A stretch of 64,000 bases of DNA from Pseudomonadota bacterium (lineage in GTDB: Bacteria; Desulfobacterota; Desulfobacteria; Desulfobacterales; RPRI01), in NCBI GenBank assembly GCA_018817425.1, contig JAHITX010000123.1, positions 1 through 64,000 on the forward strand. Reading direction: 5' to 3'. The stretch's first letter is position 1. Each line of letters begins with the position of its first letter. The notes beneath the pieces were generated by a model. It was not told where the DNA came from, made no database searches, and saw nothing but the letters and a program-made list of their open reading frames with translations. Positions 16,774 to 38,166 of the stretch are shown here, piece after piece. Made by a program: the position numbers and the translations under genes.

Positions 16774-18438
16774 TTATGCTGCGATACGTAACGCTTTTTC
16801 GGTTGCGGTTCTCAGTTCGGCAGGAGTAAATGGTTTGGCTATGTAATCTACAGCACCGAATCTGGCAGCTTCAACAGCAGTTTCTATGCTTGCATAACCT
16901 GTAACGATTATCACTCTTGCATCAGGCTGATTAGTTCTTACAGCCTTTAAAAGCTCAAGCCCTTCAACACCAGGTATTCTAAGATCAAGCAGAACCAGAC
17001 CGTAGTGACCTGAGCTGATTTTTTCAATAGCCTGATTCTTGTCCGAAGCCTGATCAATCTTATAACCTTTTTTGGCCAAAATCTTACGCATATTGTTATT
17101 TACAGCAACTTCATCGTCTATGATAAGAACGGTGTTTGACAAATCAGCATCTATTTGTTTGATACGATCTGCCTTTTCGCTTTTTTCAAGAAGAGCAGCA
17201 ACATTCTTTTTAAGTTGTTCATAAGGTATCATAGAAGTGCCATCCGGCTGGAGGTTCATGGCATATTCAACACCTGCAGCCTGGGCAACTTCTTCAAATT
17301 CAAACGGCATATCAATACCAATCAACTTTTTGATATCCTGCTTTGGTGCTACATCTCCCGAAACCTTTTTGGCTTTTTTCTTCTGCGGGCAAAGGTTTGA
17401 TTTTACTCCTGCCTTGCAGGTATTTCCCAGCTTTTTAAATATATCGCAAACCATCTCTCCAAGAAGGCAGTAATTCTCTACAGGTTGCTCCATTTTCACC
17501 TCAACTACAGGAGTGTCAGAACGCCCAAGGGTTTCGACATATTCTTTGCCGGTTGCCTTTTCTACTTCATTTCGGTCAAATGGCATGTCAACATCAATCA
17601 TCCCACCATTTTTTAGTTTGAGACCTGCTACTGTTTTCTTTAATGTTTCATACGGTACAAAAGAAAGCCCCTCATGATGAAGATTGGTTACATATTCAGG
17701 TCCGGTGACAGATATTACTTCATCATAATTAAAAGGCATATCAACTCCAATGAGTTGGGATGTATCTGTTTTCCTGGTTTTCCCGGATGATTGTTTTTTC
17801 TTTTTCTGTGGGCATGCACTTGTTTTTACACCTGCTTTACAGGTTGCTCCAAGCTTCTTGAAAATCTCGCACACCATGTCACCAGTCTTGCAATAATGCT
17901 CCAGCGTTTCAATAGGCTTAGCCTCAACAACAGGCATATCTGAAGGCCCAAGACTTTTCACATATTCTTCACCGGTATATTTGGCTACTTCCTCTGCTTC
18001 AAAGGGCATATCAAAATCAATTACATCTATGGTTTCAACTTCTTCAGCAGGTGCCTGAACCTTTGGCAGATCGCCTTTCAATGCATGGGAAACAGTGCTT
18101 CTCAGTTCATCAGGAGTAAAAGGTTTAGGCAGATAGTCAAGTGCGCCCAGCCGGATGGCTTTCATGGCCGTGTCGGTAGAAGCATAAGCTGTCATCATTA
18201 AAGACTTCATTTCCGGATAATCTTTTTTTACCTTTTTTAACAGCTCCAGTCCGTTCATTTCAGGCATTACAAGATCAGAAATAACAAGCGAATAGGACTC
18301 TTCAGACATTTTATCCAGGGCTTCTTTGGCACTAAGTGCACAAGACACATCATAATTATTTTTGGATAATATTTTTACTACATTCTGGCAAATGCCTTGT
18401 TCATCATCAACAACCATAATTCTTGGCATAGGTTCCAT
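16774..18438 (-). CDS. Dual-receiver protein with Cys-rich DMPF repeat domain
   Basis: A 554-residue protein with receivers at both ends: about 5-122 with Asp55 in VISDLVMPEMNG, and about 436-552 with Asp485 in VLLDLRIPGVEG. Between them lie four short modules, each opening with a D-M-P-F box (143, 233, 284, 377) followed by an EV...TGxEYVxxL pattern. Modules 1 and 3 continue with a cysteine section (Cys183/190/200/209 and Cys324/331/341/350: YC, MVC, TCKAGVK, CPQKKK). Modules 2 and 4 end with a PYExLKKxVAxL helix. I do not recognise this middle domain; four regularly spaced Cys per module suggest metal or redox chemistry. No DNA-binding output is present. A sigma-54-like promoter lies upstream. 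Confidence 0.85.
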   Translation of the reverse strand: MEPMPRIMVVDDEQGICQNVVKILSKNNYDVSCALSAKEALDKMSEESYSLVISDLVMPEMNGLELLKKVKKDYPEMKSLMMTAYASTDTAMKAIRLGALDYLPKPFTPDELRSTVSHALKGDLPKVQAPAEEVETIDVIDFDMPFEAEEVAKYTGEEYVKSLGPSDMPVVEAKPIETLEHYCKTGDMVCEIFKKLGATCKAGVKTSACPQKKKKQSSGKTRKTDTSQLIGVDMPFNYDEVISVTGPEYVTNLHHEGLSFVPYETLKKTVAGLKLKNGGMIDVDMPFDRNEVEKATGKEYVETLGRSDTPVVEVKMEQPVENYCLLGEMVCDIFKKLGNTCKAGVKSNLCPQKKKAKKVSGDVAPKQDIKKLIGIDMPFEFEEVAQAAGVEYAMNLQPDGTSMIPYEQLKKNVAALLEKSEKADRIKQIDADLSNTVLIIDDEVAVNNNMRKILAKKGYKIDQASDKNQAIEKISSGHYGLVLLDLRIPGVEGLELLKAVRTNQPDARVIIVTGYASIETAVEAARFGAVDYIAKPFTPAELRTATEKALRIAA

Positions 18439-18523: not shown

Positions 18524-18540
18524 AGCAGAATATATGCCAA
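18524..18540 (-). promoter_or_regulatory. Sigma-54-type promoter for dual-receiver gene
   Basis: On the minus strand the sequence reads TTGGCATATATTCTGCTT. The GG and GC dinucleotides are separated by exactly ten bases, as in -24/-12 promoters, and the -24 box TTGGCA is strong; the -12 box CTGC is one off TTGC. It lies about 85 bases upstream of the start codon. The gene encoding a sigma-54 activator lies directly upstream. Confidence 0.6.
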
Positions 18541-18693
18541 AAAATCATAAACGCTGTTTTGCATAGCATTTCAATTATTTATATGATTTGCTTGTGATGT
18601 GATTTTTTAAAAAGTGTATAGAAAAGATATACGAAATTTATAAAACAATGGGAGGAATTTGTATGTTCTTATAGAAATATATTGTAATCAAGT

Positions 18694-18725
18694 GTGTACA
18701 AAAAAAATATACAGTGTACAAAAAA
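18694..18725. promoter_or_regulatory. Candidate activator site: GTGTACAAAAAA direct repeat
   Basis: GTGTACAAAAAA occurs twice with a 20-bp period (18694 and 18714), which places both on the same face of the helix. Each contains the palindrome TGTACA. The pair lies about 155-185 bp upstream of the sigma-54-like promoter, a normal distance for an enhancer site of the NtrC family. A GTATA-N6-TATAC inverted pair lies nearer the promoter at about 18616-18632. Binding is inferred only. Confidence 0.45.
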
Positions 18726-18737
18726 CGAGTTGGTTAA

Positions 18738-20189
18738 TTAAGAAAGGTTCTTTTTAGGCTGCCTGAGAATTTTATGTTTTTTCATCAGGGCCTGAAAATT
18801 CGTACGCTGAATACCGGTTTTTTCCGCCGCAAGAGTTACATTCCAGTTATGTTGTGTTAGTGCGTTTAATATAAAATTTCTTTCAAGCTGTTGTGAAACC
18901 TGTTGTCTTAGTTCTTGCTTTTTTTGTTTTAACTCTTCATTGGTCACTGGCGTTACAGCAAGCAGGTTCTCCGGATTGATGATTATAGATTCCGGCTCAT
19001 TGCTATCAGCAAAAACTTCTATCTCAGGAAAATGATTTGATTCAAGGATTTCTCCTTCACAAAGAATTACCGCCCTTTCTATAACGTTTTTCAGCTGGCG
19101 TACATTTCCAGGCCAGTTATATGACATAAGCCTCTGCAACGCTTCAGGTGCAATAGCTTTAACCAATTTATTAATTTGTTCGCTAAAAAGCTTTAAAAAA
19201 CGTTCCGAAATTTCCGGAAGATCTGAAAGTATCTCGCGCAATGGTGGAGTATTTATCGGATATACCATAATACGGTAGTAAAAGTCTTTGCGGAATATTT
19301 TATCTTCAACCATTTTTGCAAGATCCTGGTTAGTAGCAAAAATCAAGCGTATATCTACTTTTTGAACTTTATCTCCGCCTACAGGAATAAACTCCCTGTT
19401 TTCAAGGAACCGTAAAAGTTTCCCCTGAATTTCATAACTGATGTTGCTGATTTCATCTAAAAACACAGTACCTTTATTTGCACGCTTAAATATGCCGTCT
19501 TTATCCTGATATGCACCGGTAAAGGCCCCCTTCACATGACCGAATAATTCACTGGATAAAAGATTGTCAGACAAAGTTCCGCAATCCACTGCAAAAAACA
19601 CTTCTTCCTTCCGATTGCTGTTGGCATGTACTGCACGGGCAACAAGCTCTTTTCCTGTACCACTTTCCCCGTAAATCAGAACCGTTGAATCAGTTGGAGC
19701 TACTTTCTGTATCATTGAAACTACCTGCCGGATTTTGGGATTTTTTCCTATAAGCTGGTGAGAAAGTCTTTTGATCTGTCCGGCTGATTCATGTATGGGT
19801 TGTTTTGTATGTATATGTCTTGCAGAAAGCGCCTGCCGGACAACCGAACGAAGCTCAACAGGAGTAAAAGGTTTAGGCAGGTAATCAAAAGCTCCAAGTT
19901 TCATAACCTCAACAGCCGATGAAATCGATGCATATCCGGTAATGATAATCACTTTTGTATCAGGGTATTTCTCTTTTATACTTCTTAATAATTCCATACC
20001 TCCCATACGGCTCATCTTAAGATCCGTTATCACTACATCAAAAGGGACTGTTTTCATCATAGCAAGTGCATCATATCCATTTTGGACATAATGGACTTCA
20101 AGATCATTTTTTGCCAGAATCTTTAAGCAGGCATTGCCGATATTTACTTCATCATCAACAATCAATACCCTGGGAAGTTTATCATTCAT
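18738..20189 (-). CDS. NtrC-family sigma-54 response regulator
   Basis: A 483-residue regulator. The receiver (about 6-122) has VVITDLKMSRMGG. The central AAA+ domain (about 140-375) has Walker A GESGTGKE, the sigma-54 contact loop GAFTGA, a GTVFLDEI Walker B region and the W-P-G-N-V-R-Q motif. A Fis-type helix-turn-helix lies at the C-terminus (LAAEKTGIQRTNFQALMKKH). Its ATG overlaps the stop of the upstream kinase as TAATG, so the two form a two-component pair. The next gene downstream has a sigma-54-like promoter and direct repeats in its long leader, making it a plausible target. Confidence 0.93.
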   Translation of the reverse strand: MNDKLPRVLIVDDEVNIGNACLKILAKNDLEVHYVQNGYDALAMMKTVPFDVVITDLKMSRMGGMELLRSIKEKYPDTKVIIITGYASISSAVEVMKLGAFDYLPKPFTPVELRSVVRQALSARHIHTKQPIHESAGQIKRLSHQLIGKNPKIRQVVSMIQKVAPTDSTVLIYGESGTGKELVARAVHANSNRKEEVFFAVDCGTLSDNLLSSELFGHVKGAFTGAYQDKDGIFKRANKGTVFLDEISNISYEIQGKLLRFLENREFIPVGGDKVQKVDIRLIFATNQDLAKMVEDKIFRKDFYYRIMVYPINTPPLREILSDLPEISERFLKLFSEQINKLVKAIAPEALQRLMSYNWPGNVRQLKNVIERAVILCEGEILESNHFPEIEVFADSNEPESIIINPENLLAVTPVTNEELKQKKQELRQQVSQQLERNFILNALTQHNWNVTLAAEKTGIQRTNFQALMKKHKILRQPKKNLS

Positions 20190-21655
20190 TATTTTTCCTT
20201 CAAACCTGTAGGAAGTACTATGGTAAATGTAGTTCCATGCCCCGGTTTGCTGCTCACATCAATAGCACCGCCATGCTGCTCAATAATACCGCTTGTGATG
20301 GATAAACCAAGCCCGGTACCATCCTCTTTTGTAGAGAAAAAAGGATCAAATATTTTATCTATTACTTCAAAAGGTATCCCATTACCTGTATCGCTGACCA
20401 TTATTATGACTTGATCTTTAGCTGATTTATACGAAACGGACAAAGTTATACTTCCTCCGGGATCTACTGCATCAGTAGCATTTAATACCAGATTGATAAC
20501 CGCCTGCTCAATTTGCCCTTTGTCAAAAAGCAGCTTTGGTATTGAATCAGTACAATTAAAATTAATTGTGATATTTTTAAAAGCAGCTTGTTTCCTGGTA
20601 AGCAAAGCGCACTCTTCCATAATCTCACAGATATCATATTGCTTTTTTTCTGGTTTGGATTGGCGGGCAAAATTTAAAAGGCTGGTAACAATTTTACGGC
20701 AACGCAAAGTCTCACTGGAGATAATGTCCAGTTCCTGATAAATGGGGTTGTCTTTTTGAAGATCTTCCTGAATCAGCATGGCTGTCGTCAAAATGGTTGT
20801 AAGAGGATTGTTTATTTCATGTGCCACACCTGCTGCAAGCCTGCCTATGGAAGCCAGTTTGTCCTGTTGCAGCATGGATTTCTGAGTCTTTACATCACGG
20901 GTAACATCTCTTGACAATTCAATTACACCAGTTACTTTTTCATTTTCAATCAAAGGATAGCAGGATATCAGACAATATATTTCATTACTATCTTTATCCA
21001 GATGAATATGAGTTGCCTGAGAAGAGCTTCTATTCTCAATAGATTCTACAAGCGGACAGGGATGTTCAAAACCGGAGCACGGAATATCGCGGTGATGAGT
21101 AATTTCATAGCAAAACTTTCCTATGGCATCTTCCCGATTGATTCCTAGCTTGTTTAACATCGCGTTATTTATATCCTGAATCTTGTAGTCCGGAGCAATC
21201 TTTATTACTTCTTCATGAATCATCTGGTTAATAAGGACATCGCACATTATTTCATTATCATTGTAAAATTTAAGATTCTCACGCAATCTGACTAGTTCTA
21301 CCGCTCTTTTTATTGAAATTATCAGTAATTCTATATTTACCGGTTTGATTAAAAAATTTGAGGCGCTATTCTTAAGACCCTTTAAGGCCGCTTGAAGATC
21401 ATCATTTTCCACAATAAACAGAAATTCAGCATCGGGAAACTTTTTTTTCATCTTATCAATCAGTTCAATGCTTTTTGTATCCGACATTATAATATCGGCA
21501 ATAACAATATTAAGCTTTTTTCTGCCTATAAGATCAAAAGCAGTTTCCATGTTTTCGGCAGCAACAAACTTGTAGCCGACACCGGCAAGTGATTCACCAA
21601 GTACTTTATGGATATCCTCATCGAAATTAATCAGAAGAATAGTATAATTGATCAT
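20189..21655 (-). CDS. REC-PAS histidine kinase, partner of NtrC regulator
   Basis: A 488-residue cytoplasmic kinase. An N-terminal receiver (about 4-120; VIADIIMSD) is followed by a PAS domain whose variable region carries a Cys pair (IPCSGFEHPCPL). HisKA reads GRLAAGVAHEINNPLTTILT, and the HATPase has NLVLNATDAVDPGG, DTGNGIPFEV and GTGLGLSITSGI. It overlaps the sigma-54 regulator gene by one base. The Cys-containing PAS type recurs in other regulators of this window, suggesting redox or metal responsiveness, but this is inference. Confidence 0.9.
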   Translation of the reverse strand: MINYTILLINFDEDIHKVLGESLAGVGYKFVAAENMETAFDLIGRKKLNIVIADIIMSDTKSIELIDKMKKKFPDAEFLFIVENDDLQAALKGLKNSASNFLIKPVNIELLIISIKRAVELVRLRENLKFYNDNEIMCDVLINQMIHEEVIKIAPDYKIQDINNAMLNKLGINREDAIGKFCYEITHHRDIPCSGFEHPCPLVESIENRSSSQATHIHLDKDSNEIYCLISCYPLIENEKVTGVIELSRDVTRDVKTQKSMLQQDKLASIGRLAAGVAHEINNPLTTILTTAMLIQEDLQKDNPIYQELDIISSETLRCRKIVTSLLNFARQSKPEKKQYDICEIMEECALLTRKQAAFKNITINFNCTDSIPKLLFDKGQIEQAVINLVLNATDAVDPGGSITLSVSYKSAKDQVIIMVSDTGNGIPFEVIDKIFDPFFSTKEDGTGLGLSITSGIIEQHGGAIDVSSKPGHGTTFTIVLPTGLKEK

Positions 21656-23616: not shown

Positions 23617-24489
23617 ATGACTATTCAAAAACGATTACAAAACGGAGAATTCGTCGTTCTGGCGGAAATGAACACACCGAAAGGCGTTGACATTTCGCGG
23701 TTTATTACTGACGCCAAGCGCATTAAGGGACGTATTGACAGCATTGTTGTCCCTGACATGGACAACGGCGTGATGCGAATGAGCGCACTTGCCGGCGCTG
23801 TTCTGATTCAACAGCAGGGAATAGAGGCAATCATACATATCTATGGACGGGACCGAAACCGGATGGCCCTTCAAGGCGATTTGTTGGCCGCCCATGTTCT
23901 GGGTATCAAAAATCTCATCGTGGTCCAGGGAGATGACATGGCTAATAGCGACCATCGGACGGCGATTCCGGTTGATGATCTTGATGAGCTGGGTTTGCTC
24001 GCCGCAATCCGGTCCCTTCAGGCCGGAAAAGACCTGGCAGAGTTTGATCTGGACGGACAGCCCGAATTTCATACCGGCTGCCGGCTCTCGCCGTTTGCGG
24101 ATGATGCCGGGATGAACAGCGAACTGAATATGGCAAAGGATAAAATTGCCGCAGGAGCAGAATTTATCATAACACCGCCGGTGTTTGACATAAATGAGTT
24201 TAAGAAATTCATGCAGAAAGCCTCAGATCTCGGTGTACCGGTGATTCCCACAGTCTTTTTGATCAAATCGGTGGCGGTTGCCAGGTATATCGCAACTAAT
24301 GAACCTGGTGCGCATATTTCCGAAGAGATCATCCGACGCATTCGAAAATCGCCGGACCGTGAAATGGAAGGCATCAAAATCGCCGGAGAAACCATTGCTC
24401 AGCTTCGAAAAATGGCGCAGGGCGTTCTTATTCAGGCCATGGGATGGGAACACCGCCTGTCAGCCATTCTGGATGCGGCAGGTATTTGA
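23617..24489 (+). CDS. MetF-like methylene-tetrahydrofolate reductase family protein
   Basis: A 290-residue TIM-barrel protein of the MetF family. It shows the N-terminal acidic segment (VVLAEMNTPKG), an RDRNRMALQGDLLAA helix matching the TRDRNRLAMQSDI of the second MetF in this operon, and VVQGDDM. It is less canonical than the second copy: the segment after VVQGDDM lacks the usual GDxP. It is 13 bases downstream of the TusA-like gene and precedes a double-length HdrA. Two different MetF-type proteins in one operon suggest either a heteromeric reductase or a second folate-dependent C1 reaction. Confidence 0.8.
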   Translation: MTIQKRLQNGEFVVLAEMNTPKGVDISRFITDAKRIKGRIDSIVVPDMDNGVMRMSALAGAVLIQQQGIEAIIHIYGRDRNRMALQGDLLAAHVLGIKNLIVVQGDDMANSDHRTAIPVDDLDELGLLAAIRSLQAGKDLAEFDLDGQPEFHTGCRLSPFADDAGMNSELNMAKDKIAAGAEFIITPPVFDINEFKKFMQKASDLGVPVIPTVFLIKSVAVARYIATNEPGAHISEEIIRRIRKSPDREMEGIKIAGETIAQLRKMAQGVLIQAMGWEHRLSAILDAAGI

Positions 24490-24490
24490 C

Positions 24491-27400
24491 ATGCAACCCT
24501 CAAAAAAGAAAAAGAGAAATATGAAAAAAACAGACCCAATTCAAACTATTGACAGGGTTCTGGTGATCGGCGGCGGGGTCGGGGGTATTCGCACGGCGCT
24601 GGATCTGGCTGAAGCTCGGAAAAATGTAGTTCTGATCGATAAGGCAAATGCTATCGGAGGACTGATGACGCTTCTGGACCGGACTTTTCCGACCAATAAC
24701 TGCGACCTTTGCACCCTCTCTCCGACTCTGTCAGAGAGCAGTCGAAACCAGTATATTCAATTGATGACCCTGACAAAAATCGTAAGCCTGGACGGTGAGC
24801 CCGGAAATTTTACCGCAACACTGGTAACATCTCCCCGTCATATCGACATGGATAGATGCACCGCCTGCGGGGAATGCCGCAAGCAGTTTCCTGAGTGTGT
24901 GGATTTCAATCCGGGCCTTGATCATCGGGCACCAACCTGTATGCGCTATCCCCAGGCCACCCCCCAGGCATTTTCTATTAACATGAGCCGTTGTTCCAAT
25001 CCTCAGGCAGTTATTGCATGCTGTCCGGCAGGCGCCATTCTTGCTGATGATCCGGAACGTGAAGTCAGGCTCCAGGTGGCGTCAGTAGTACTTGCACAGG
25101 GCGCAGAAATATTTGATCCGGCCGGATTAGACAGTTTCAGTTATGGCCATGATCCCGATGTAGTGACAAGCCTGGAATACGAACGCATTCTGTCGGCTTC
25201 CGGGCCTACTCAGGGCAAGCTGGTCTGTCCTTCAGACGGCCGGATTCCAGCTAAAATCGCCTGGATTCAGTGTGTGGGATCCCGGGGGCTTCAAAAAGGC
25301 GCCGTGTCCTATTGCTCAGGCGTTTGCTGCATGTTTGCACTTAAAGAGGCCATGGTGACCAAAGAGCGCTTTGAAGACAGTATTGATACTGCGATATTTT
25401 ATATGGACATCCGAACTTTCGGCAAGGACTATGAACGCTATTATGACCGCAGCCGTAACACATCCGGTGTGCGGTTTGTTCGAAGCCGTCCGCACAGCGT
25501 ATTCCGAAAAAACGGACAGGATCAGCTCAGCATCACCTTTGCGACTGAGGATTCCAGCACGCTTAAGGAAGAGTTGTTTGATATGGTGGTTCTGTCCACC
25601 GGCTTTCGGATAACAAATGACCTCCGGCAGACTGCCACTTGCCTTGGAATCGAGCTGAATGGACACGGATTCGCGCAAACCGACGGTTTCGATCCGGTTG
25701 TCACATCCCGAAGCGGTGTTTATGTCTGTGGTATGTTTGAAGGTCCTAAGGATATTCCTGAAACCATGATTCAGGCCAGCGCCTCAGCCTGCATGGCCGC
25801 AACTCATGTTCCGGCAGCAGCGGCAATCTCCGAGGGCGACAGCGAATTTGTTTCCGAAAGAAATGTGACCGAAGAAGATCCACGGGTAGGAGTGTTTATC
25901 TGCGACTGTGGAGAAAATATCGGCGGCGTGATTGATGTTTCCGAACTGGGGGCATTTGCCGCAAAGCTTCCGGGAGTTGCCATTGCGGAGGGTGTAGGAC
26001 ACGGGTGCAGCCGTGAATCCATGAAGCATATCGAGGAGGCGATTGTCAGATACAAACTCAATCGGGTGGTAATCGGCGGATGTTCGCCCCGAACGCACGA
26101 AACGCGGTTTCAGGATTTGCTTCGGCGCAGCGGGCTGAATAAATACCTGCTGGAAATCACCAACCTTCGGGATCAGGATACATGGGTTCATAAGGATATG
26201 CCAAAAGAAGCCACTGCCAAGGCCAGGCAGTTGATATGGGCATCGGTTCAGTCGGTGAAAAAGGCCAGGGCCCTTGCGGATAACCGCTTGCCAGTCAACC
26301 GGGATATTCTGGTCGTGGGCGGAGGCGTAGCGGGCATGAGCGCATCTATGAGATTGGCCGATCAAGGATTTAAGGTTTTTCTGGCAGAGCGGCATTCCAT
26401 GCTTGGAGGCGTAGCCAATCTTGTACGAAAAACCCTGGACGGCAAAGATGTTCAGCTATTTATTCAGGATCTGATTCAAAAAACTTTGTCCCATCCCAAT
26501 ATTCAGGTGATACTTAATGCATTTATCGTTGATCACAGCGGCATGCCGGGTATGTTTAAAACCGGAATGCAGGTCGGAGCCCGGATGTTTTACCGGCAGA
26601 TCAGCCATGGCATAACGATTCTGGCAACAGGCGCGCTGCCCAACCGTCCGGAAGGATATTTGCTCGGCCGTCATGCGGCAGTAATGACCCAGCTGGATGC
26701 TGATGCGCTGCTGGAGGACATGCCTGCTAAGGTGTCCGACTGGAACAATGTGGTTATGATTCAGTGTGTGGGCTCCCGACTGCCGGATAACCCCAACTGC
26801 TCCAGGATCTGCTGCCAGACAGCTATCAAAAATGCTCTCAGGATTCTGGATATCAATCCCGAAGCACGTATTTTCATTCTGTATAGGGATATGCGAACCT
26901 ACGGATTTCAGGAAGACTATTATCAGACCGCCAGGGAGCGTGGTGTTATCTTTGTCCGGTATGAAGCAGCCCAACCTCCCGAAGTCAGAGAAGCGGAAAA
27001 ACTCGTGGAAGTCGCCTTTACCGACCCGATACTGGGGCGCCGTATTGAGGTGACTGCTGATGTATTGCTGCTGAGCACCGGCTTTATCAGTGATGATGAA
27101 TCAAGCGAAGATCTGGCAGCAATTTTTAAAATTCCCCGAACCCCGGATGGGTATTATCTGGAAGACCATATCAAGCTGCGGCCCGTTGATTTTTCCAAGC
27201 CCGGGTTTTTCATGGCCGGAACCGCGCATTCTCCACGGTCTATCAGGGAAAGTATTGCTCAGGCTGAGGCTTCGGCTGCCAGAGCCCAGACACTTCTCAG
27301 CCGTGACAGCATCAGCATCGGAGCAGCTATTGCCCGGGTCGATTCCAAAAAATGTGCGGCCTGTCTTGTTTGCGTACGGGCCTGTCCGTTTGGGGTTCCA

Positions 27401-27562
27401 TTTATCAATGCGGACGGCTATTCGGAAATTGATCCGTCCAAATGTCATGGCTGCGGCGTGTGCGCCTCTGAATGTCCGGCCAAGGCTATTCAATTAATGC
27501 AGTTTGAAGATGACCAGATTCTGGCAAAAATATACGGATTGCTGGAAAGGATGGTGGCATAA
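24491..27562 (+). CDS. Double-length HdrA-like flavin/iron-sulfur protein
   Basis: A 1023-residue protein made of an HdrA-like FAD half followed by a complete HdrA. The first Rossmann box is VLVIGGGVGGIRTALDLAEA (about 23-42), with a cysteine cluster CTACGECRKQFPEC and CCPAGAI. An HdrA N-terminal-type segment (GVFICDCGENIGGVID) occurs near 465, a second FAD box ILVVGGGVAGMSASMRLADQ near 606, and two C-terminal [4Fe-4S] motifs (CAACLVCVRACP, CHGCGVCASECP). Start 24491 follows the metF stop directly; 24521 (MKKTDPIQ) is an alternative. HdrA is the electron-bifurcating flavin subunit of heterodisulfide reductase-type complexes. It overlaps mvhD, implying a MetF/V-HdrA-MvhD complex; separate HdrB/HdrC are absent from this operon. 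Confidence 0.88.
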   Translation: MQPSKKKKRNMKKTDPIQTIDRVLVIGGGVGGIRTALDLAEARKNVVLIDKANAIGGLMTLLDRTFPTNNCDLCTLSPTLSESSRNQYIQLMTLTKIVSLDGEPGNFTATLVTSPRHIDMDRCTACGECRKQFPECVDFNPGLDHRAPTCMRYPQATPQAFSINMSRCSNPQAVIACCPAGAILADDPEREVRLQVASVVLAQGAEIFDPAGLDSFSYGHDPDVVTSLEYERILSASGPTQGKLVCPSDGRIPAKIAWIQCVGSRGLQKGAVSYCSGVCCMFALKEAMVTKERFEDSIDTAIFYMDIRTFGKDYERYYDRSRNTSGVRFVRSRPHSVFRKNGQDQLSITFATEDSSTLKEELFDMVVLSTGFRITNDLRQTATCLGIELNGHGFAQTDGFDPVVTSRSGVYVCGMFEGPKDIPETMIQASASACMAATHVPAAAAISEGDSEFVSERNVTEEDPRVGVFICDCGENIGGVIDVSELGAFAAKLPGVAIAEGVGHGCSRESMKHIEEAIVRYKLNRVVIGGCSPRTHETRFQDLLRRSGLNKYLLEITNLRDQDTWVHKDMPKEATAKARQLIWASVQSVKKARALADNRLPVNRDILVVGGGVAGMSASMRLADQGFKVFLAERHSMLGGVANLVRKTLDGKDVQLFIQDLIQKTLSHPNIQVILNAFIVDHSGMPGMFKTGMQVGARMFYRQISHGITILATGALPNRPEGYLLGRHAAVMTQLDADALLEDMPAKVSDWNNVVMIQCVGSRLPDNPNCSRICCQTAIKNALRILDINPEARIFILYRDMRTYGFQEDYYQTARERGVIFVRYEAAQPPEVREAEKLVEVAFTDPILGRRIEVTADVLLLSTGFISDDESSEDLAAIFKIPRTPDGYYLEDHIKLRPVDFSKPGFFMAGTAHSPRSIRESIAQAEASAARAQTLLSRDSISIGAAIARVDSKKCAACLVCVRACPFGVPFINADGYSEIDPSKCHGCGVCASECPAKAIQLMQFEDDQILAKIYGLLERMVA

Positions 27563-28029
27563 TGGAAAAATTTGAACCGGTTATTATAGCATTTTGCTGT
27601 CATTATTGCGCATATACTGCTGCGGACATGGCCGGAAGTCTGCGATTATGTTATCCGGCCAATGTTAAAATAGTCCGCGTTCCGTGCTCCGGAAAAGTGG
27701 ATACGATCCATATTCTGAAGGCATTTGAAGGCGGCGCTGATGGCGTCTATGTGGCAGGATGCCTGGAAGGAGACTGTCATTTTAAAAACGGTAATGTCCG
27801 GGCAGCCAAACGGGTGGCATATACCCAAAAATTGCTGGACGATATCGGCATCGGCGGCCAAAGGCTGGAAATGGTCAATCTGTCCGCCGGGATGGGGGAG
27901 CGTTTTGCTGAAATTGCCCGGCAAATCACTGAAAAAATCCGGAAGTTGGGACCCAACCCAATCCGAAATTTGACCCGGCCGTTGTCCGAGGCCTCGGTCC
28001 ATATATCAAAGGAGTTACCATTACAATGA
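27562..28029 (+). CDS. mvhD: MvhD-like hydrogenase/Hdr iron-sulfur subunit
   Basis: A 155-residue protein of the MvhD (hydrogenase delta) family: FCCHYCAYTAADMAG, VRVPCSGKVDTIHILKAFEG and VAGCLEGDCHFKNGN carry the conserved cysteines of its [2Fe-2S] cluster. MvhD transfers electrons between a donor (hydrogenase, formate dehydrogenase or other) and HdrA. It overlaps the hdrA-like stop as TAATG and the metV start as ATGA, so all three are translationally coupled and probably form one complex. Confidence 0.92.
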   Translation: MEKFEPVIIAFCCHYCAYTAADMAGSLRLCYPANVKIVRVPCSGKVDTIHILKAFEGGADGVYVAGCLEGDCHFKNGNVRAAKRVAYTQKLLDDIGIGGQRLEMVNLSAGMGERFAEIARQITEKIRKLGPNPIRNLTRPLSEASVHISKELPLQ

Positions 28030-28694
28030 TTACAGCGGAACCTAAACCCCTGGAGGAAATCATTGAATATATCCGGCCTTTTCAGAAAATTCTGCTGGTC
28101 GGATGCAACGAGTGCGTAACGGTTTGTTCTGCCGGTGGTCGCAAGGAAGTCGGCATACTGTCCTCATTGTTGCAGATGTCATTTCTCAAGCAGGGAAAAA
28201 ATTTGCAGATTCGGGAGCACACCCTGGAACGTCAGTGTGATCCGGAATATATTGAAGAACTTACGCCTATGATCGATGGTGTGGATGCCATAATGTCCAT
28301 GGCCTGCGGGTGCGGTGTACAAGAGATAAGCCGCCGGTTTAAGGATAAACCGGTGTTTCCCGCGATCAACACAAAATTTATGGGCGCATCGGAACGGCAG
28401 GGAGTGTGGGCCGAACGGTGCCAGGGATGTGGTGACTGCCTGCTGGGCATTACCGGAGGCATCTGTCCGATCAGCAGGTGTTCAAAGCAGTTGATGAACG
28501 GTCCCTGCGGCGGTTCCACGACCGGGAAATGTGAAATCAGCCCGGACGTTGACTGTGCCTGGCAGTTGATCTGGGATCGGCTCAAGGCGCTGGGATTGGA
28601 AGACCGGTATGAACGGATCATCCCGGCCAAGGATTGGAGACCTGGACGGGGCGCCGGCCCCCGCAAAATTATCAGAGAGGATTTGGCAGAATGA
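28026..28694 (+). CDS. metV: MetV-like methylene-THF reductase subunit
   Basis: A 222-residue cysteine-rich protein matching the MTHFR C-terminal (MetV) family. It has LLVGCNECVTVCSAGGRKEV, MACGCGVQE, CQGCGDCLLGITGGICPISR and the signature CSKQLMNGPCGGSTTGKCE. In acetogens MetV couples MetF to HdrA/MvhD-type electron carriers through Fe-S and Zn centres. It overlaps both neighbours by four bases (ATGA). Together with metF and mvhD this indicates an NADH-independent, Hdr-linked methylene-tetrahydrofolate reductase of the Wood-Ljungdahl pathway. Confidence 0.9.
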   Translation: MITAEPKPLEEIIEYIRPFQKILLVGCNECVTVCSAGGRKEVGILSSLLQMSFLKQGKNLQIREHTLERQCDPEYIEELTPMIDGVDAIMSMACGCGVQEISRRFKDKPVFPAINTKFMGASERQGVWAERCQGCGDCLLGITGGICPISRCSKQLMNGPCGGSTTGKCEISPDVDCAWQLIWDRLKALGLEDRYERIIPAKDWRPGRGAGPRKIIREDLAE

Positions 28695-29620
28695 AAACCG
28701 AAAGCGTACTCGAAAAAGTTTTAAAATCCGGCAATCTTGCAGTAACATCGGAATGCGGCCCACCGCGGGGAGCAGTGCCGGAAAAGGTCCGACAAAAAGC
28801 CGAATTACTAAGAGGTTATGTCGATGCGGTCAATGTCACGGATAATCAAACCGCCATGGTTCGCATGTCCAGCTTTGCAGCCGGTGTTATTTTACGGCAG
28901 ATGGGTCTTCACCCGATTCTTCAGATGGTTACGCGTGATCGAAACCGGCTGGCTATGCAATCCGATATTATCGGAGCGTATTCCCATGACATCAATAACA
29001 TGATTTGCCTTTCCGGTGATCATCCGAAATTTGGCGATCATCCCATGGCTGCAAGCGTTCATGACATCGACTCCATCCAGTTTGTACAGATGGTGAAAAA
29101 AATGCGGGATGAAGGAAAATTCCAGGGCGGTGCGGATATTGAAAATGCACCAAAAATGTTTATAGGTGCGGCTGCTAATCCCTTTGCCGACCCTTTTGAA
29201 CTCCGGGTTGCCCGTCTGGCCAAAAAAGTGGCTGCCGGTGCAGATTTTATTCAGACCCAGTGCATTTATAATCTGGACAAGTTTGAGAAATGGATGGAAG
29301 GGGTTCGAAGCCGCGGCCTCCACGAAAAAACTTATATTCTGGCCGGTGTTACTCCTATTAAAACTGTAGGTATGGCCCGGTATATGAAAAACAAAGTGCC
29401 GGGCATGGATGTTCCTCAGGAAGTAGTGGACCGCATGGCCGGTGTTCCCAAGGAAAAACAGGCTGAAGAAGGCATTAAAATCTGTGTGGAAACCATCGAA
29501 CGCCTTAAACAGGTCAAAGGTGTCGCAGGATTTCATATCATGGCTATCGAATGGGAGCAGAAAGTGCCGGAAATTGTGGAACGGGCAGGGCTTTATCCCC
29601 GCCCGGATATTGGGGTTTAA
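28691..29620 (+). CDS. metF: Methylene-tetrahydrofolate reductase MetF
   Basis: A 309-residue MetF flavoprotein (5,10-methylene-THF to 5-methyl-THF). The start at 28691 is used because it overlaps the metV stop as ATGA; an upstream in-frame start would run through metV. Diagnostic segments are SECGPPRG near the N-terminus, NVTDNQTAMVRMSSFAAGVI, MVTRDRNRLAMQSDIIGA, LSGDHPKFGDHP, GADFIQTQCIYNLDKFEKW and AGVTPIKT. It closes the tightly packed tusA-like/metF/hdrA/mvhD/metV/metF operon. Confidence 0.93.
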   Translation: MKTESVLEKVLKSGNLAVTSECGPPRGAVPEKVRQKAELLRGYVDAVNVTDNQTAMVRMSSFAAGVILRQMGLHPILQMVTRDRNRLAMQSDIIGAYSHDINNMICLSGDHPKFGDHPMAASVHDIDSIQFVQMVKKMRDEGKFQGGADIENAPKMFIGAAANPFADPFELRVARLAKKVAAGADFIQTQCIYNLDKFEKWMEGVRSRGLHEKTYILAGVTPIKTVGMARYMKNKVPGMDVPQEVVDRMAGVPKEKQAEEGIKICVETIERLKQVKGVAGFHIMAIEWEQKVPEIVERAGLYPRPDIGV

Positions 29621-34266: not shown

Positions 34267-34354
34267 TGTCTTTTGGTAAAGGCTCATGTTTTAGTTGTTA
34301 ATTTACATATTGTTTGAATTATTTAAAACTAATATTTTTAAGGAGTGGCGGAAT

Positions 34355-35941
34355 ATGAATAAGGGGAAATATCTGCTGGGTTTTGTCTGTATTTTAGCGG
34401 TTTCCATTGTTTTTATATACAGCACCCGCATCCTTGGGTCAGGGCAGATTTCAGATGTTTCATCCCGGTCAAGGTCAGATGTAATTCAAATCGATAAAAT
34501 GACTGCTTTTGGCAGACTTGAAAAACCGCCTGTTGAATTTCTTCACAACGCTCATACCGAAGCCCTGGCCAAAAAGAAAATGGATTGTACAGCCTGCCAT
34601 TTAACCGATAATGACCGGATTTTTCTCAAATTTAAGCGAATCAAGGATACTGACAGGATAGAGGTGATGAATATTTATCATAAAGGATGCATTTCCTGTC
34701 ATGGAGAAATGAAAGCAGCAGGGGAGAAAGCCGGGCCGGTTGAATGCGATGGCTGCCATAAGGAAAAAACACTATATTCATCTTCCGGACAGCCGATGGG
34801 CTTTGATAAATCCCTTCATTTCCGTCATTCGGAGGTGCAGGATAAAAAATGCGAACGGTGCCATCATGAATATGACGAAAAGGCAAAAAAACTTTTTTAT
34901 GCAAAAGGTAAAGAAGGAACTTGCCGGTATTGCCATCAGACTGAAACAAAAGATAATTTGATTTCAATGCGCCTGGCTTCACATATTGCCTGCATAGATT
35001 GCCACAGGAAAAATCTTTCCAAAAAGATAGCTGCCGGTCCTGTAAACTGTTTGGGGTGCCATGATCGTGAAGCACAACAAAAAATTAAAAAAATATCTCC
35101 GGTTCCTCGAATGGATATGAAACAGCCTGATATTGCTTTGCTCAAGACCGCCAAAAAAGGCAGCGGTGTCGATACCATGAGCTTAAACAGGATGAATTTT
35201 GTTCCTTTTGATCATAAGGCTCATGAGTCCTATAACGATTCCTGCAGGATCTGTCATCATGAAAGCCTCAAGCCGTGTAATGAATGCCATACTCTTGCCG
35301 GAATAAAAGAGGGCAAAGAGGTAAATCTTGAAAAAGCCATGCACCAGGTTAACACAGGCAGAAGCTGTCAGGGTTGCCATGTTTTAAAGCAGGATGATGA
35401 AAACTGTGCAGGTTGCCATGCCTTCATGGGAAAGACAAGCAGGACAGAAGATGAGTTATGCCTTCAGTGTCATATGGTACCGGTGTCTGAAAAGAAAAAA
35501 TTATTAAAACCGGACGACGAAAAAATGTTGGCAACTGCAAAGCTACTTTCAAGAACCCCTGTTACCGGCACTTATAATGAAAACGATATTCCGGAAAAAG
35601 TTATTATAAAGAATCTTTCCAACAAGTATGAGGCGGTTGATTTTCCGCATCGCAAGATTATTAATACTCTTGTAAGCAATATCAAAGATAACAAACTTGC
35701 AGGATATTTTCACAGCCAGGAAGGAACAATTTGCCAGGGATGTCATCATAACAGCCCTGTTTCCAAGAAGCCGCCTCAATGCGGAAATTGTCATGGCAAA
35801 GCCTTTGATGAAAAGAATCCATTAAAACCCGGAATAATGGGTGCATATCATCTGCAGTGCATAGGTTGCCATAAAGAGATGGATATCAAAAAACCTGCCG
35901 GGTGTACTGATTGTCATAAAAAAATTAAAGATAAAATGTAA
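34355..35941 (+). CDS. hmcA: HmcA-type 16-heme cytochrome c
   Basis: A 528-residue membrane-anchored multiheme cytochrome. The start at 34355 is used because AAGGAG lies upstream and the protein then opens with a signal/anchor helix (YLLGFVCILAVSIVFIYS); an ORF extension to 34295 lacks this support. Sixteen CxxCH motifs can be counted, several as CxxCHH (CERCHH, CRICHH, CQGCHH), the same number as HmcA of Desulfovibrio. HmcA sits on the periplasmic side and exchanges electrons with small type I cytochromes c3 and the membrane Hmc subunits. It is followed by hmcB, hmcC and hmcD homologues in the classical order. Confidence 0.92.
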   Translation: MNKGKYLLGFVCILAVSIVFIYSTRILGSGQISDVSSRSRSDVIQIDKMTAFGRLEKPPVEFLHNAHTEALAKKKMDCTACHLTDNDRIFLKFKRIKDTDRIEVMNIYHKGCISCHGEMKAAGEKAGPVECDGCHKEKTLYSSSGQPMGFDKSLHFRHSEVQDKKCERCHHEYDEKAKKLFYAKGKEGTCRYCHQTETKDNLISMRLASHIACIDCHRKNLSKKIAAGPVNCLGCHDREAQQKIKKISPVPRMDMKQPDIALLKTAKKGSGVDTMSLNRMNFVPFDHKAHESYNDSCRICHHESLKPCNECHTLAGIKEGKEVNLEKAMHQVNTGRSCQGCHVLKQDDENCAGCHAFMGKTSRTEDELCLQCHMVPVSEKKKLLKPDDEKMLATAKLLSRTPVTGTYNENDIPEKVIIKNLSNKYEAVDFPHRKIINTLVSNIKDNKLAGYFHSQEGTICQGCHHNSPVSKKPPQCGNCHGKAFDEKNPLKPGIMGAYHLQCIGCHKEMDIKKPAGCTDCHKKIKDKM

Positions 35942-35956
35942 GTTGAGGTGTTTAAT

Positions 35957-36997
35957 ATGTCGATATCACGAAGGAAGTTTCTGGGCTGGATTGGTGCGGC
36001 AGGTATAGGTTCTACTGTGGGCAAATCGGCTCTTGCTTCCGGCAATAAACATTTTGAGGGCTATCCCGGGAGTTTCGGTGTGTTGCATGACATTAGCCGA
36101 TGTGTCGGATGCCGGAGTTGCGAGGCGGCCTGCAACAAGGTAAATGATCTTCCTGTTCCCGATAAAGCATTTACGGATATTAGCGTTTTGGATGAAAAAA
36201 GGAGAACAACCTCAAAGGCATACACAGTGGTTAATAGATATGATGTTGCTGGTAAAAAAGAACCGGTTTTCAGAAAAAATCAGTGTAATCATTGCCTTGA
36301 GCCTGCCTGTGCATCCGTATGTTTTGTCAGGGCTTTCAAAAAAACGCCAACAGGCGCTGTTACCTATGATCCCAACGTGTGCGTGGGATGCCGTTATTGC
36401 ATGATAGCCTGCCCTTTTGAGATTCCGGCATATGAATACAATAAAGCGCTTGAGCCGCGTGTAATGAAATGCACCATGTGCTATCCCAGGATATCCAAGG
36501 GGCAACTTCCCGGATGTGTCGAAGCCTGTCCGGTTGAAGCACTGACTTTTGGGAAACGGGAGGATTTGCTTATGATAGCGCGTGAACGTATCCGAAAATA
36601 CCCGGACAGATATATTAATCATATATATGGCGAGACCGAAATGGGTGGCACAAACTGGCTGTATATTTCAGGCGTAGCCTTTTCAGATATCGGGATGCGT
36701 GAAGACCTCGGTGTTACGCCTGCTCCCGAGTTGACTTCCGGAGCTCTTGCGGCTGTTCCTGTTGTTGCCGGCTTATGGCCTGTGCTTTTGATGGGAATAT
36801 ACGCCATATCAAAACGCAAAGAAAGTATTTCGCAGCAGGAGATTGAAGATGCCGTCCGGGCTGTTTCGGATAAGGCTGATTCAGAACTGGCCCAAGCCCT
36901 GGCAAAGGCTCGGAAAGAACAAGAGGCTGCCGTTAGAAAAGAGGTCAGGAAAGCTCTTGAAGAGGCTGCCCGGTCCCGAGACAAGGAGGATATCTGA
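35957..36997 (+). CDS. hmcB: HmcB-type periplasmic ferredoxin subunit
   Basis: A 346-residue protein with a Tat signal ([20 protein letters not shown]) and ferredoxin-type cysteine motifs: [37 protein letters not shown] and [16 protein letters not shown]. That gives four [4Fe-4S] sites of the DmsB/HmcB type. A hydrophobic helix ([19 protein letters not shown]) follows near residue 260-280, then a charged, coiled-coil-like tail. The ATG at 35957 is used because TTGAGGTG lies upstream; a GTG three codons earlier overlaps that ribosome site. Its stop overlaps the hmcC start (TGATG). It passes electrons between the cytochrome and the NrfD-type subunit. Confidence 0.9.
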
Positions 36998-38166
36998 TGT
37001 CTGACAAAGCTGCTAATGATGCCAAAACATGGTTTACACCCTTTAATGTCATATCCGGTACTATCATCATAATAGGTATTGTAATCACCATCTTAAGGTT
37101 TACCCGCGGATTGGGAGCAGTTACAAATCTTTCCGATAATAATCCATGGGGGATATGGATCGGCTTTGATCTGCTTGTAGGTGTTGCCCTTGCGGCAGGA
37201 GGATATGTAACATCGGCAGCCGTGTATATTTTCGGAATGAAAAAATACCATTCTGCGGTAAGACCTGCGGTGCTTACGGGGTTTCTCGGTTATGCGCTCG
37301 TAGTTGTAGCTCTTAACTATGATGTGGGCATACCCTGGCGCCTTCCATATCCCTTTATTTATCAGGGAACAACTTCATTTTTGTTTGAAGTGGCTGCATG
37401 CGTTGCTTTATATCTGACCGTTTTATTTCTCGAATTTATGCCTGCTCCGCTGGAATGGCTTGGTTTGAAAAAAGTAAGAGAACTTGCCGTAAAGCTGACT
37501 ATGGTTCTGACTGTATTAGGCGTTATAATTTCCACATTACATCAGTCATCTCTTGGCGCAATTTTTCTTATTGCGCCTTCAAAGCTTCATCCTCTGTGGT
37601 ATTCTCCCTATCTGCCGACCTTTTTTTTCATATCAAGCATTATAGCCGGATTATCCATGGTTATATTTGAAAGTACTCTTTCGCATCATTATTTTGCGGA
37701 CAAAATGGACGAAGTGCATATCAAAGAAAATGAAGGCGTGACGCTGGGCTTTGGTAAAGCAGCGTCTTTGGTTCTTGCAGGTTATTTTATGATAAAGATT
37801 ATCGGGATAGCCGGAGGAAACAACTGGAATCTGCTTGGAACCTCGTATGGACTCTGGTTTCTTGTCGAATTGTTGGGGTTTGTTGCTTTGCCGTCATTTT
37901 TATATGCAGTTGGAGTTCGCAATAAAGATTTAACACTTATTAAATGGACTGCTGTATGGACGGTGCTTGGCGTTGTTATCAACCGTCTTAATGTTTCTCT
38001 TATAGCATTTAACTGGCAGCTTCCTTCCAGCCAAAGATATTTTCCAAGCTGGATGGAAATAGCTATTTCTGTTTTTGTAGTAACTGTCGGTATTGTTGTT
38101 TTCAGATTTATCGTAACAAGAATGCCTGTTTTTTATGAACATCCGGATTACAAAGATAAGCACTAA
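36997..38166 (+). CDS. hmcC: HmcC/NrfD-family membrane quinone subunit
   Basis: A 389-residue polytopic protein of the NrfD/PsrC/HmcC family with about ten hydrophobic segments. Examples are FNVISGTIIIIGIVITILRF, FDLLVGVALAAGGYVTSAAV and FFFISSIIAGLSMVIFE. The early NNPWGIWIGFD motif and the middle TLHQSSLGAIFLIAPSKLHP segment are typical. The family forms the quinone-interacting or proton-translocating membrane part of such complexes. It overlaps hmcB by one base. Confidence 0.92.
   Translation: MSDKAANDAKTWFTPFNVISGTIIIIGIVITILRFTRGLGAVTNLSDNNPWGIWIGFDLLVGVALAAGGYVTSAAVYIFGMKKYHSAVRPAVLTGFLGYALVVVALNYDVGIPWRLPYPFIYQGTTSFLFEVAACVALYLTVLFLEFMPAPLEWLGLKKVRELAVKLTMVLTVLGVIISTLHQSSLGAIFLIAPSKLHPLWYSPYLPTFFFISSIIAGLSMVIFESTLSHHYFADKMDEVHIKENEGVTLGFGKAASLVLAGYFMIKIIGIAGGNNWNLLGTSYGLWFLVELLGFVALPSFLYAVGVRNKDLTLIKWTAVWTVLGVVINRLNVSLIAFNWQLPSSQRYFPSWMEIAISVFVVTVGIVVFRFIVTRMPVFYEHPDYKDKH

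Follow-up and report, generated by a model that had tools for sequence, protein, structure and literature searches.

A tandem-receiver protein family with cysteine-bearing repeat modules, candidate effectors of a sigma-54-dependent two-component system

The 64,000-nucleotide stretch of DNA analyzed here (the window; contig JAHITX010000123.1 of assembly GCA_018817425.1) carries a minus-strand gene at positions 16774-18438 whose product, as judged from profile comparisons, is a member of an undescribed family in which two receiver (REC) domains enclose units made of two small modules, A and B. We put at about one half the probability that this REC-AB-REC protein is not a conventional response regulator but an effector that a two-component system induces and that phosphorylation then tunes, holding a metal on a set of four cysteines (Cys4) and acting on redox partners. 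The same layout was recovered in 71 distinct two-receiver relatives and is thus not a product of chance. Nearly all of these belong to the class of the window, anaerobic Desulfobacterales being among the hosts, and one is from an Aminicenantes MAG (L039). The relatives were collected by profile, without a cysteine filter. Positive genomes numbered 16 of 59 among near relatives, 81 of 390 in the class, and 9 of 395 in the phylum, two of the nine falling outside the class; the GTDB species collection yielded 20 loci.

The gene is a real open reading frame of 554 amino acids, with AAGGAGG directly 5' of an ATG start codon at 18438, and the domain order of the encoded protein is REC-A1-B1-A2-B2-REC. 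Pfam places the receivers at residues 7-116 (18091-18420, minus strand) and 437-546 (16801-17130, minus strand), with a combined E-value of 3.9e-61. Both score above the Pfam cut-off and have intact phospho-acceptor residues, namely D11, D12, D55, T83, and K105 in the first and D441, D442, D485, T513, and K535 in the second; the DD, D, T, and K positions are retained in both receivers in at least 53 of 55 aligned relatives. The neighboring histidine kinase would be the phosphodonor of these domains. Pfam and NCBIfam searches of the window protein detected no helix-turn-helix (HTH) or other DNA-binding domain outside the receivers, in agreement with the initial annotation of this DNA, which had been made from the sequence alone.

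Between the receivers, the tetrapeptide DMPF recurs at about residues 143, 233, 283, and 376, marking four modules in the order A-B-A-B, all encoded on the minus strand. Module A1 (17794-18027) consists of a DMPF half and cysteines 183, 190, 200, and 209, and module A2 (17368-17598) has cysteines 324, 331, 341, and 350; each A module follows the pattern C-x6-C-x9-C-x8-CP. Modules B1 (17611-17757) and B2 (17182-17328) contain DMPF and end in PYETLKK and PYEQLKK, respectively (general form PYExLKK). These motif positions confirm the alternation of Cys4 and PYExLKK forms that the initial annotation had described, and the cysteine spacing it had given as about 7, 10, and 9 residues is exactly 7, 10, and 9 in both A1 and A2. 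The B profile hits the first half of A as well, indicating that the four DMPF halves are homologous; by this comparison they represent a single repeated element, with the Cys4 segment distinguishing A. The linkers are rich in lysine. The Cys4, DMPF, and PYExLKK residues are kept across very distant relatives, and the constancy of the Cys4 argues for a metal site, such that the A-B unit most likely holds an iron-sulfur cluster or zinc. The spacing C-x6-C-x9-C-x8-C is unlike any metal site known to us.

The middle region had been described as unplaceable in a known family, and this held when a confident match was sought in Pfam, NCBIfam, and PDB sequences. Searches of the region against Pfam, NCBIfam, and PDB sequences (phmmer and hmmsearch) gave no acceptable match, nor did 100 A-B units consistently match any Pfam or NCBIfam entry. 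OAM_dimer (PF16554) resembles the first half of A1 weakly (E-value 0.0034; 18.2 bits against a cut-off of 25 bits) and was found in only 2 of the 100 units at E-values up to 1; being rare, below the cut-off, and not reproduced across relatives, it was treated as a chance match and rejected. A match within the same genome, at C80, that covered the linker and B2 (E-value 0.3) was also dismissed as chance. An AlphaFold2 model of the A-B unit built with 100 sequences reached a pLDDT of 72 and a pTM of 0.31, with the B part best ordered (about 85), and with a pTM this low the model yielded no Foldseek match in the PDB at E-values up to 10. In the full-length model the receivers are confident (blocks near 90) and the middle is weak (40-80), with no Cys4 site visible in this low-confidence region; Foldseek retrieved receivers and PleD, the latter via its receiver part.

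At least one Cys4, in the exact spacing or a near variant, is present in all 66 complete proteins, with two Cys4 units in 36 and one in 30. Homologs in which the cysteines are not conserved, which the initial annotation had named as evidence against its proposal, were not found among these 66. The one relative without a Cys4 (L040) is cut by a contig end and lies outside the complete set. Cys4 was likewise found in 100 of 100 units, although that set was chosen by motif and is not independent evidence. Variant spacings are 6-9-6 (L077-L079), 6-8-3 (L039), and 6-10-8 (L120), and L074, L075, L076, L080, and L017 are among the proteins with additional B or B-like copies that lack a Cys4. In one further genome a family member contains several stops (G294:C173:3337-4088) and is likely a pseudogene or an assembly error. 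The A-B-A-B order had been taken to imply an ancestral A-B unit that duplicated. A-B does behave as an evolutionary unit, yet a single ancestral duplication is at odds with the widespread single-unit forms and with a tree of 100 units, in which first, second, and single units are intermixed and units of the same lineage often cluster (L068, L114, and the L065/L116/L112/L089 group). The well-supported branches of this tree, which has few columns and is resolved only in part, require a minimum of seven changes per two-unit label. Judged from the tree, A-B duplication is recurrent or the copies have been homogenized; gene conversion could mimic the pattern.

The order histidine kinase, NtrC-type sigma-54 activator, REC-AB-REC gene is found in nearly all loci with enough flanking sequence. 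The initial annotation had overlooked this cassette, of which the gene is the third member, as well as the use of B outside receiver proteins. In the window, the presumed cognate kinase (20189-21655, minus strand) comprises a receiver-like N-terminus, a PAS domain with a Cys/His motif, HisKA, and HATPase, and the presumed activator (18738-20189, minus strand) comprises a receiver, a sigma-54 AAA+ domain, and a Fis-type HTH. The recognition helix is well conserved among the adjacent NtrC-type activators. The gap between the activator gene and the REC-AB-REC gene is mostly 250-390 bp (300 bp in the window) and contains, by sequence, a sigma-54 -24/-12 site, TGGCATATATTCTGCT (18524-18539, minus strand), whose placement is conserved in 60 of 69 genes of the family. 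Such a site within 500 bp upstream characterizes these 60 REC-AB-REC genes versus 0 of 78 kinase, 1 of 28 nuoE, and 0 of 32 hdrA genes, and in a scored search that included the genes for B-containing GcvH-like proteins (described below), about 70 of 78 scored higher than the 99th percentile of shuffles. Upstream of the site is a conserved palindrome, TGTATA-N7-TATACA, present with at most one mismatch at 63 of 69 REC-AB-REC genes versus 3 of 78 kinase, 0 of 28 nuoE, and 0 of 32 hdrA genes; in 55 of 65 regions the best copy departs from this sequence at no more than one position, versus 0.4% of mononucleotide shuffles. Most proximal copies lie 72-76 bp from the -24 element, often with a further copy at about 140-240 bp. 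The window has a proximal CGTATA-N7-TATACA (18615-18633; one mismatch; 75 bp upstream of -24) and a distal TGTATA-N7-TGTACA (18695-18713; one mismatch), both on the minus strand and both presumed sites of the activator. Because the palindrome was discovered and counted in the same sequences, from loci that are related and not independent, what lends these counts weight is the comparison with the control gene classes, together with the fixed spacing. Across the 5.1-Mb genome of the window, half-site and promoter combined occur once, at the REC-AB-REC gene; by itself, and with up to one mismatch, the palindrome occurs at 28 sites versus 30 for a reversed control. It is the combination and its spacing that are special, not the palindrome alone. 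With a -24/-12 promoter and upstream sites at conserved spacing, the gene looks like a sigma-54 target of the adjacent NtrC-type activator, which would bind the palindromes. Scans of the region for sigma-70 promoters and terminators stayed at chance level. In the Aminicenantes locus (L039:9500-9664) there is a perfect sigma-54 site, TGGCACGCTCTTTGCT, and the palindrome differs (TGAATA-N7-TATTCA) at a similar spacing; an NtrC gene was absent from the flank examined.

Downstream of the gene, many loci encode NuoE-NuoF and a large HdrA-like flavoprotein, and hdrA and metV are present in L077 and L078. A transcript shared with nuoE under the same promoter was considered and rejected, given a gap of mostly 500-1050 bp and the lack of promoter and palindrome at nuoE and hdrA, whose link to the gene is therefore by position only. 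The window has a divergent cluster, metF-hdrA-mvhD-metV-metF (23617-29620, plus strand), in which hdrA-mvhD-metV is flanked by two methylenetetrahydrofolate reductase genes; by context, it is a candidate for the process served. Such neighbors suggest that the process involves NADH/ferredoxin electron-transfer enzymes. Elsewhere in the window (34295-38166, plus strand), genes for a multihaem class III cytochrome, a 4Fe-4S protein, and an NrfD-type membrane protein are consecutive and preceded by two histidine kinase genes, a row that likely encodes a transmembrane redox complex.

The B module alone opens GcvH-like proteins (PF01597, E-value 2.6e-18) in four loci (L071:6116-7210, L071:7434-8240, L072:125-2042, L073:5603-7266, and L085:6297-8182). 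Where upstream flank is present, these genes also lie behind a Rossmann-type kinase and an NtrC-type regulator. The B profile search returned no contexts other than receiver and GcvH-like proteins, and the sharing suggests that the two may have a partner in common, served by B. The GcvH-B genes are usually tandem pairs behind the kinase/NtrC pair and an archaemetzincin-like gene. Inspected by eye, the proteins seemingly lack the usual lipoyl-lysine motif, and some have further cysteine clusters (CVWMRAGVINFRLCDYDYDCYNCPF... and CIHFLSGRIES...C..C).

The model that best fits these observations begins with the upstream kinase, which would phosphorylate the NtrC-type regulator; the regulator would then bind both palindromes within the gap of 300 bp and switch on the sigma-54 promoter of the REC-AB-REC gene, apparently its main target. 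The product, having no DNA-binding domain, would hold a metal (iron-sulfur cluster or zinc) in its one or two Cys4 modules, with the B module that follows each acting as a putative docking element, and its two intact receivers would allow a kinase, probably the same one, to tune its activity after synthesis. Nearby genes encode its likely partners, NADH/ferredoxin electron-transfer proteins such as those of the HdrA/NuoEF/MetF type. A more specific form of this model, in which A-B is a new metal or iron-sulfur output module and the phospho-gated protein directly controls electron-bifurcating HdrA/NuoEF/MetF enzymes by contact and not through DNA, is tentative and, on balance, doubtful.

The main rival to an induced redox effector is a feedback phosphate sink, in which the receivers drain the shared kinase and so turn the NtrC activator off, with A-B as a structural, zinc-bound linker. 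A protein that has two complete receivers but no output domain, and that the same system induces, would close a natural negative feedback loop, and phosphate-sink receivers are known, as in the receiver domain of FrzE (PMC4546325). The middle of the protein nevertheless seems to be more than a linker, as Cys4, DMPF, and PYExLKK are kept over great distance and B is also present without receivers in the GcvH-like proteins, and we regard a sink as unlikely. Both A and B could instead be strings of short motifs for docking, borne by a flexible scaffold whose geometry is set by the receivers, with cysteines that only stabilize the fold. Low predicted order, small helical motifs, lysine-rich linkers, variable copy number, and recurrent duplication would all fit such a scaffold, but low model confidence may merely reflect a shallow and taxonomically narrow alignment, and this reading is considered improbable. 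Quite improbable, too, is a metal-free thiol-disulfide switch, in which oxidation of the four cysteines alters phosphorylation or binding. The cysteines are widely spaced with no CxxC pairs, the redox-gene setting is anaerobic, and single-cysteine redox control is known for the response regulator RitR (PMC5965902); against this, the four cysteines are kept together even in very divergent members and the last is followed by proline in all, which favors a four-ligand site.

Comparison with known systems helps delimit what is new about the induced effector proposed here. FrzZ of Myxococcus xanthus acts in a chemosensory pathway and, unlike the window protein, is not known to have Cys4 A-B modules between its receivers or an NtrC/sigma-54 cassette. 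It is a dual response regulator that, like the window protein, has two receivers and no DNA-binding or enzymatic output (PMC4546325), and tandem-receiver proteins without DNA-binding output are therefore a kind already known. PleD (REC-REC-GGDEF), the best full-length Foldseek match, shares the tandem receivers through which it was matched but is a diguanylate cyclase, whereas the window protein has no enzymatic domain and has modules between its receivers. NtrC-type systems with a dedicated sigma-54 target also combine a kinase, a REC-AAA+-HTH activator, palindromes, and a -24/-12 promoter; the target here differs in being a tandem-receiver protein, a second response-regulator-like layer. The genome paper of Desulfobacterium autotrophicum HRM2 gives only response regulator and histidine kinase labels around its Hdr loci (PMC2702500), and no description of a REC-AB-REC protein was found in the literature searched, mostly papers available without subscription. 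Three features appear to be new: the A-B module, the sharing of its B part with GcvH-like proteins, and a gene that looks like the sigma-54 target of its own cassette.

Together, the kinase, sigma-54 activator, palindrome, promoter, and tandem-receiver effector define a complete and testable circuit that is present in about one-fifth of the class genomes sampled. Should the Cys4 unit bind a cluster and touch HdrA/NuoEF, the protein would be a point at which phosphorylation, and not transcription, adjusts flavin-based electron bifurcation, the regulation of which in sulfate reducers has, to our knowledge, been little studied.

The kinases themselves offer further candidate redox sensors. In most loci (L037:6379-7812, L031, L071:1675-3192, and L077:10632-12068, among others) the kinase N-terminus is Rossmann-like, similar to NAD(P)-binding folds, with the motif IAIVGGGxxC...DxDLIIELTG; in other loci, including the window, the kinase starts with a receiver-like domain. 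Kinases with the recurrent Rossmann-like N-terminus are a possible family of direct NAD(H) sensors. NAD binding was not accepted as a result and is kept as a lead, matches to GFO_IDH_MocA being sub-threshold (E-values 6e-4 and 7.5e-4) and those to the PDB having E-values of 0.02 or worse. The PAS domain of the kinase usually carries C-x4-H(H/R)-x4-PC-x6-C, in the window (20189-21655) as in relatives, and this motif is possibly a metal or cofactor site of its own.
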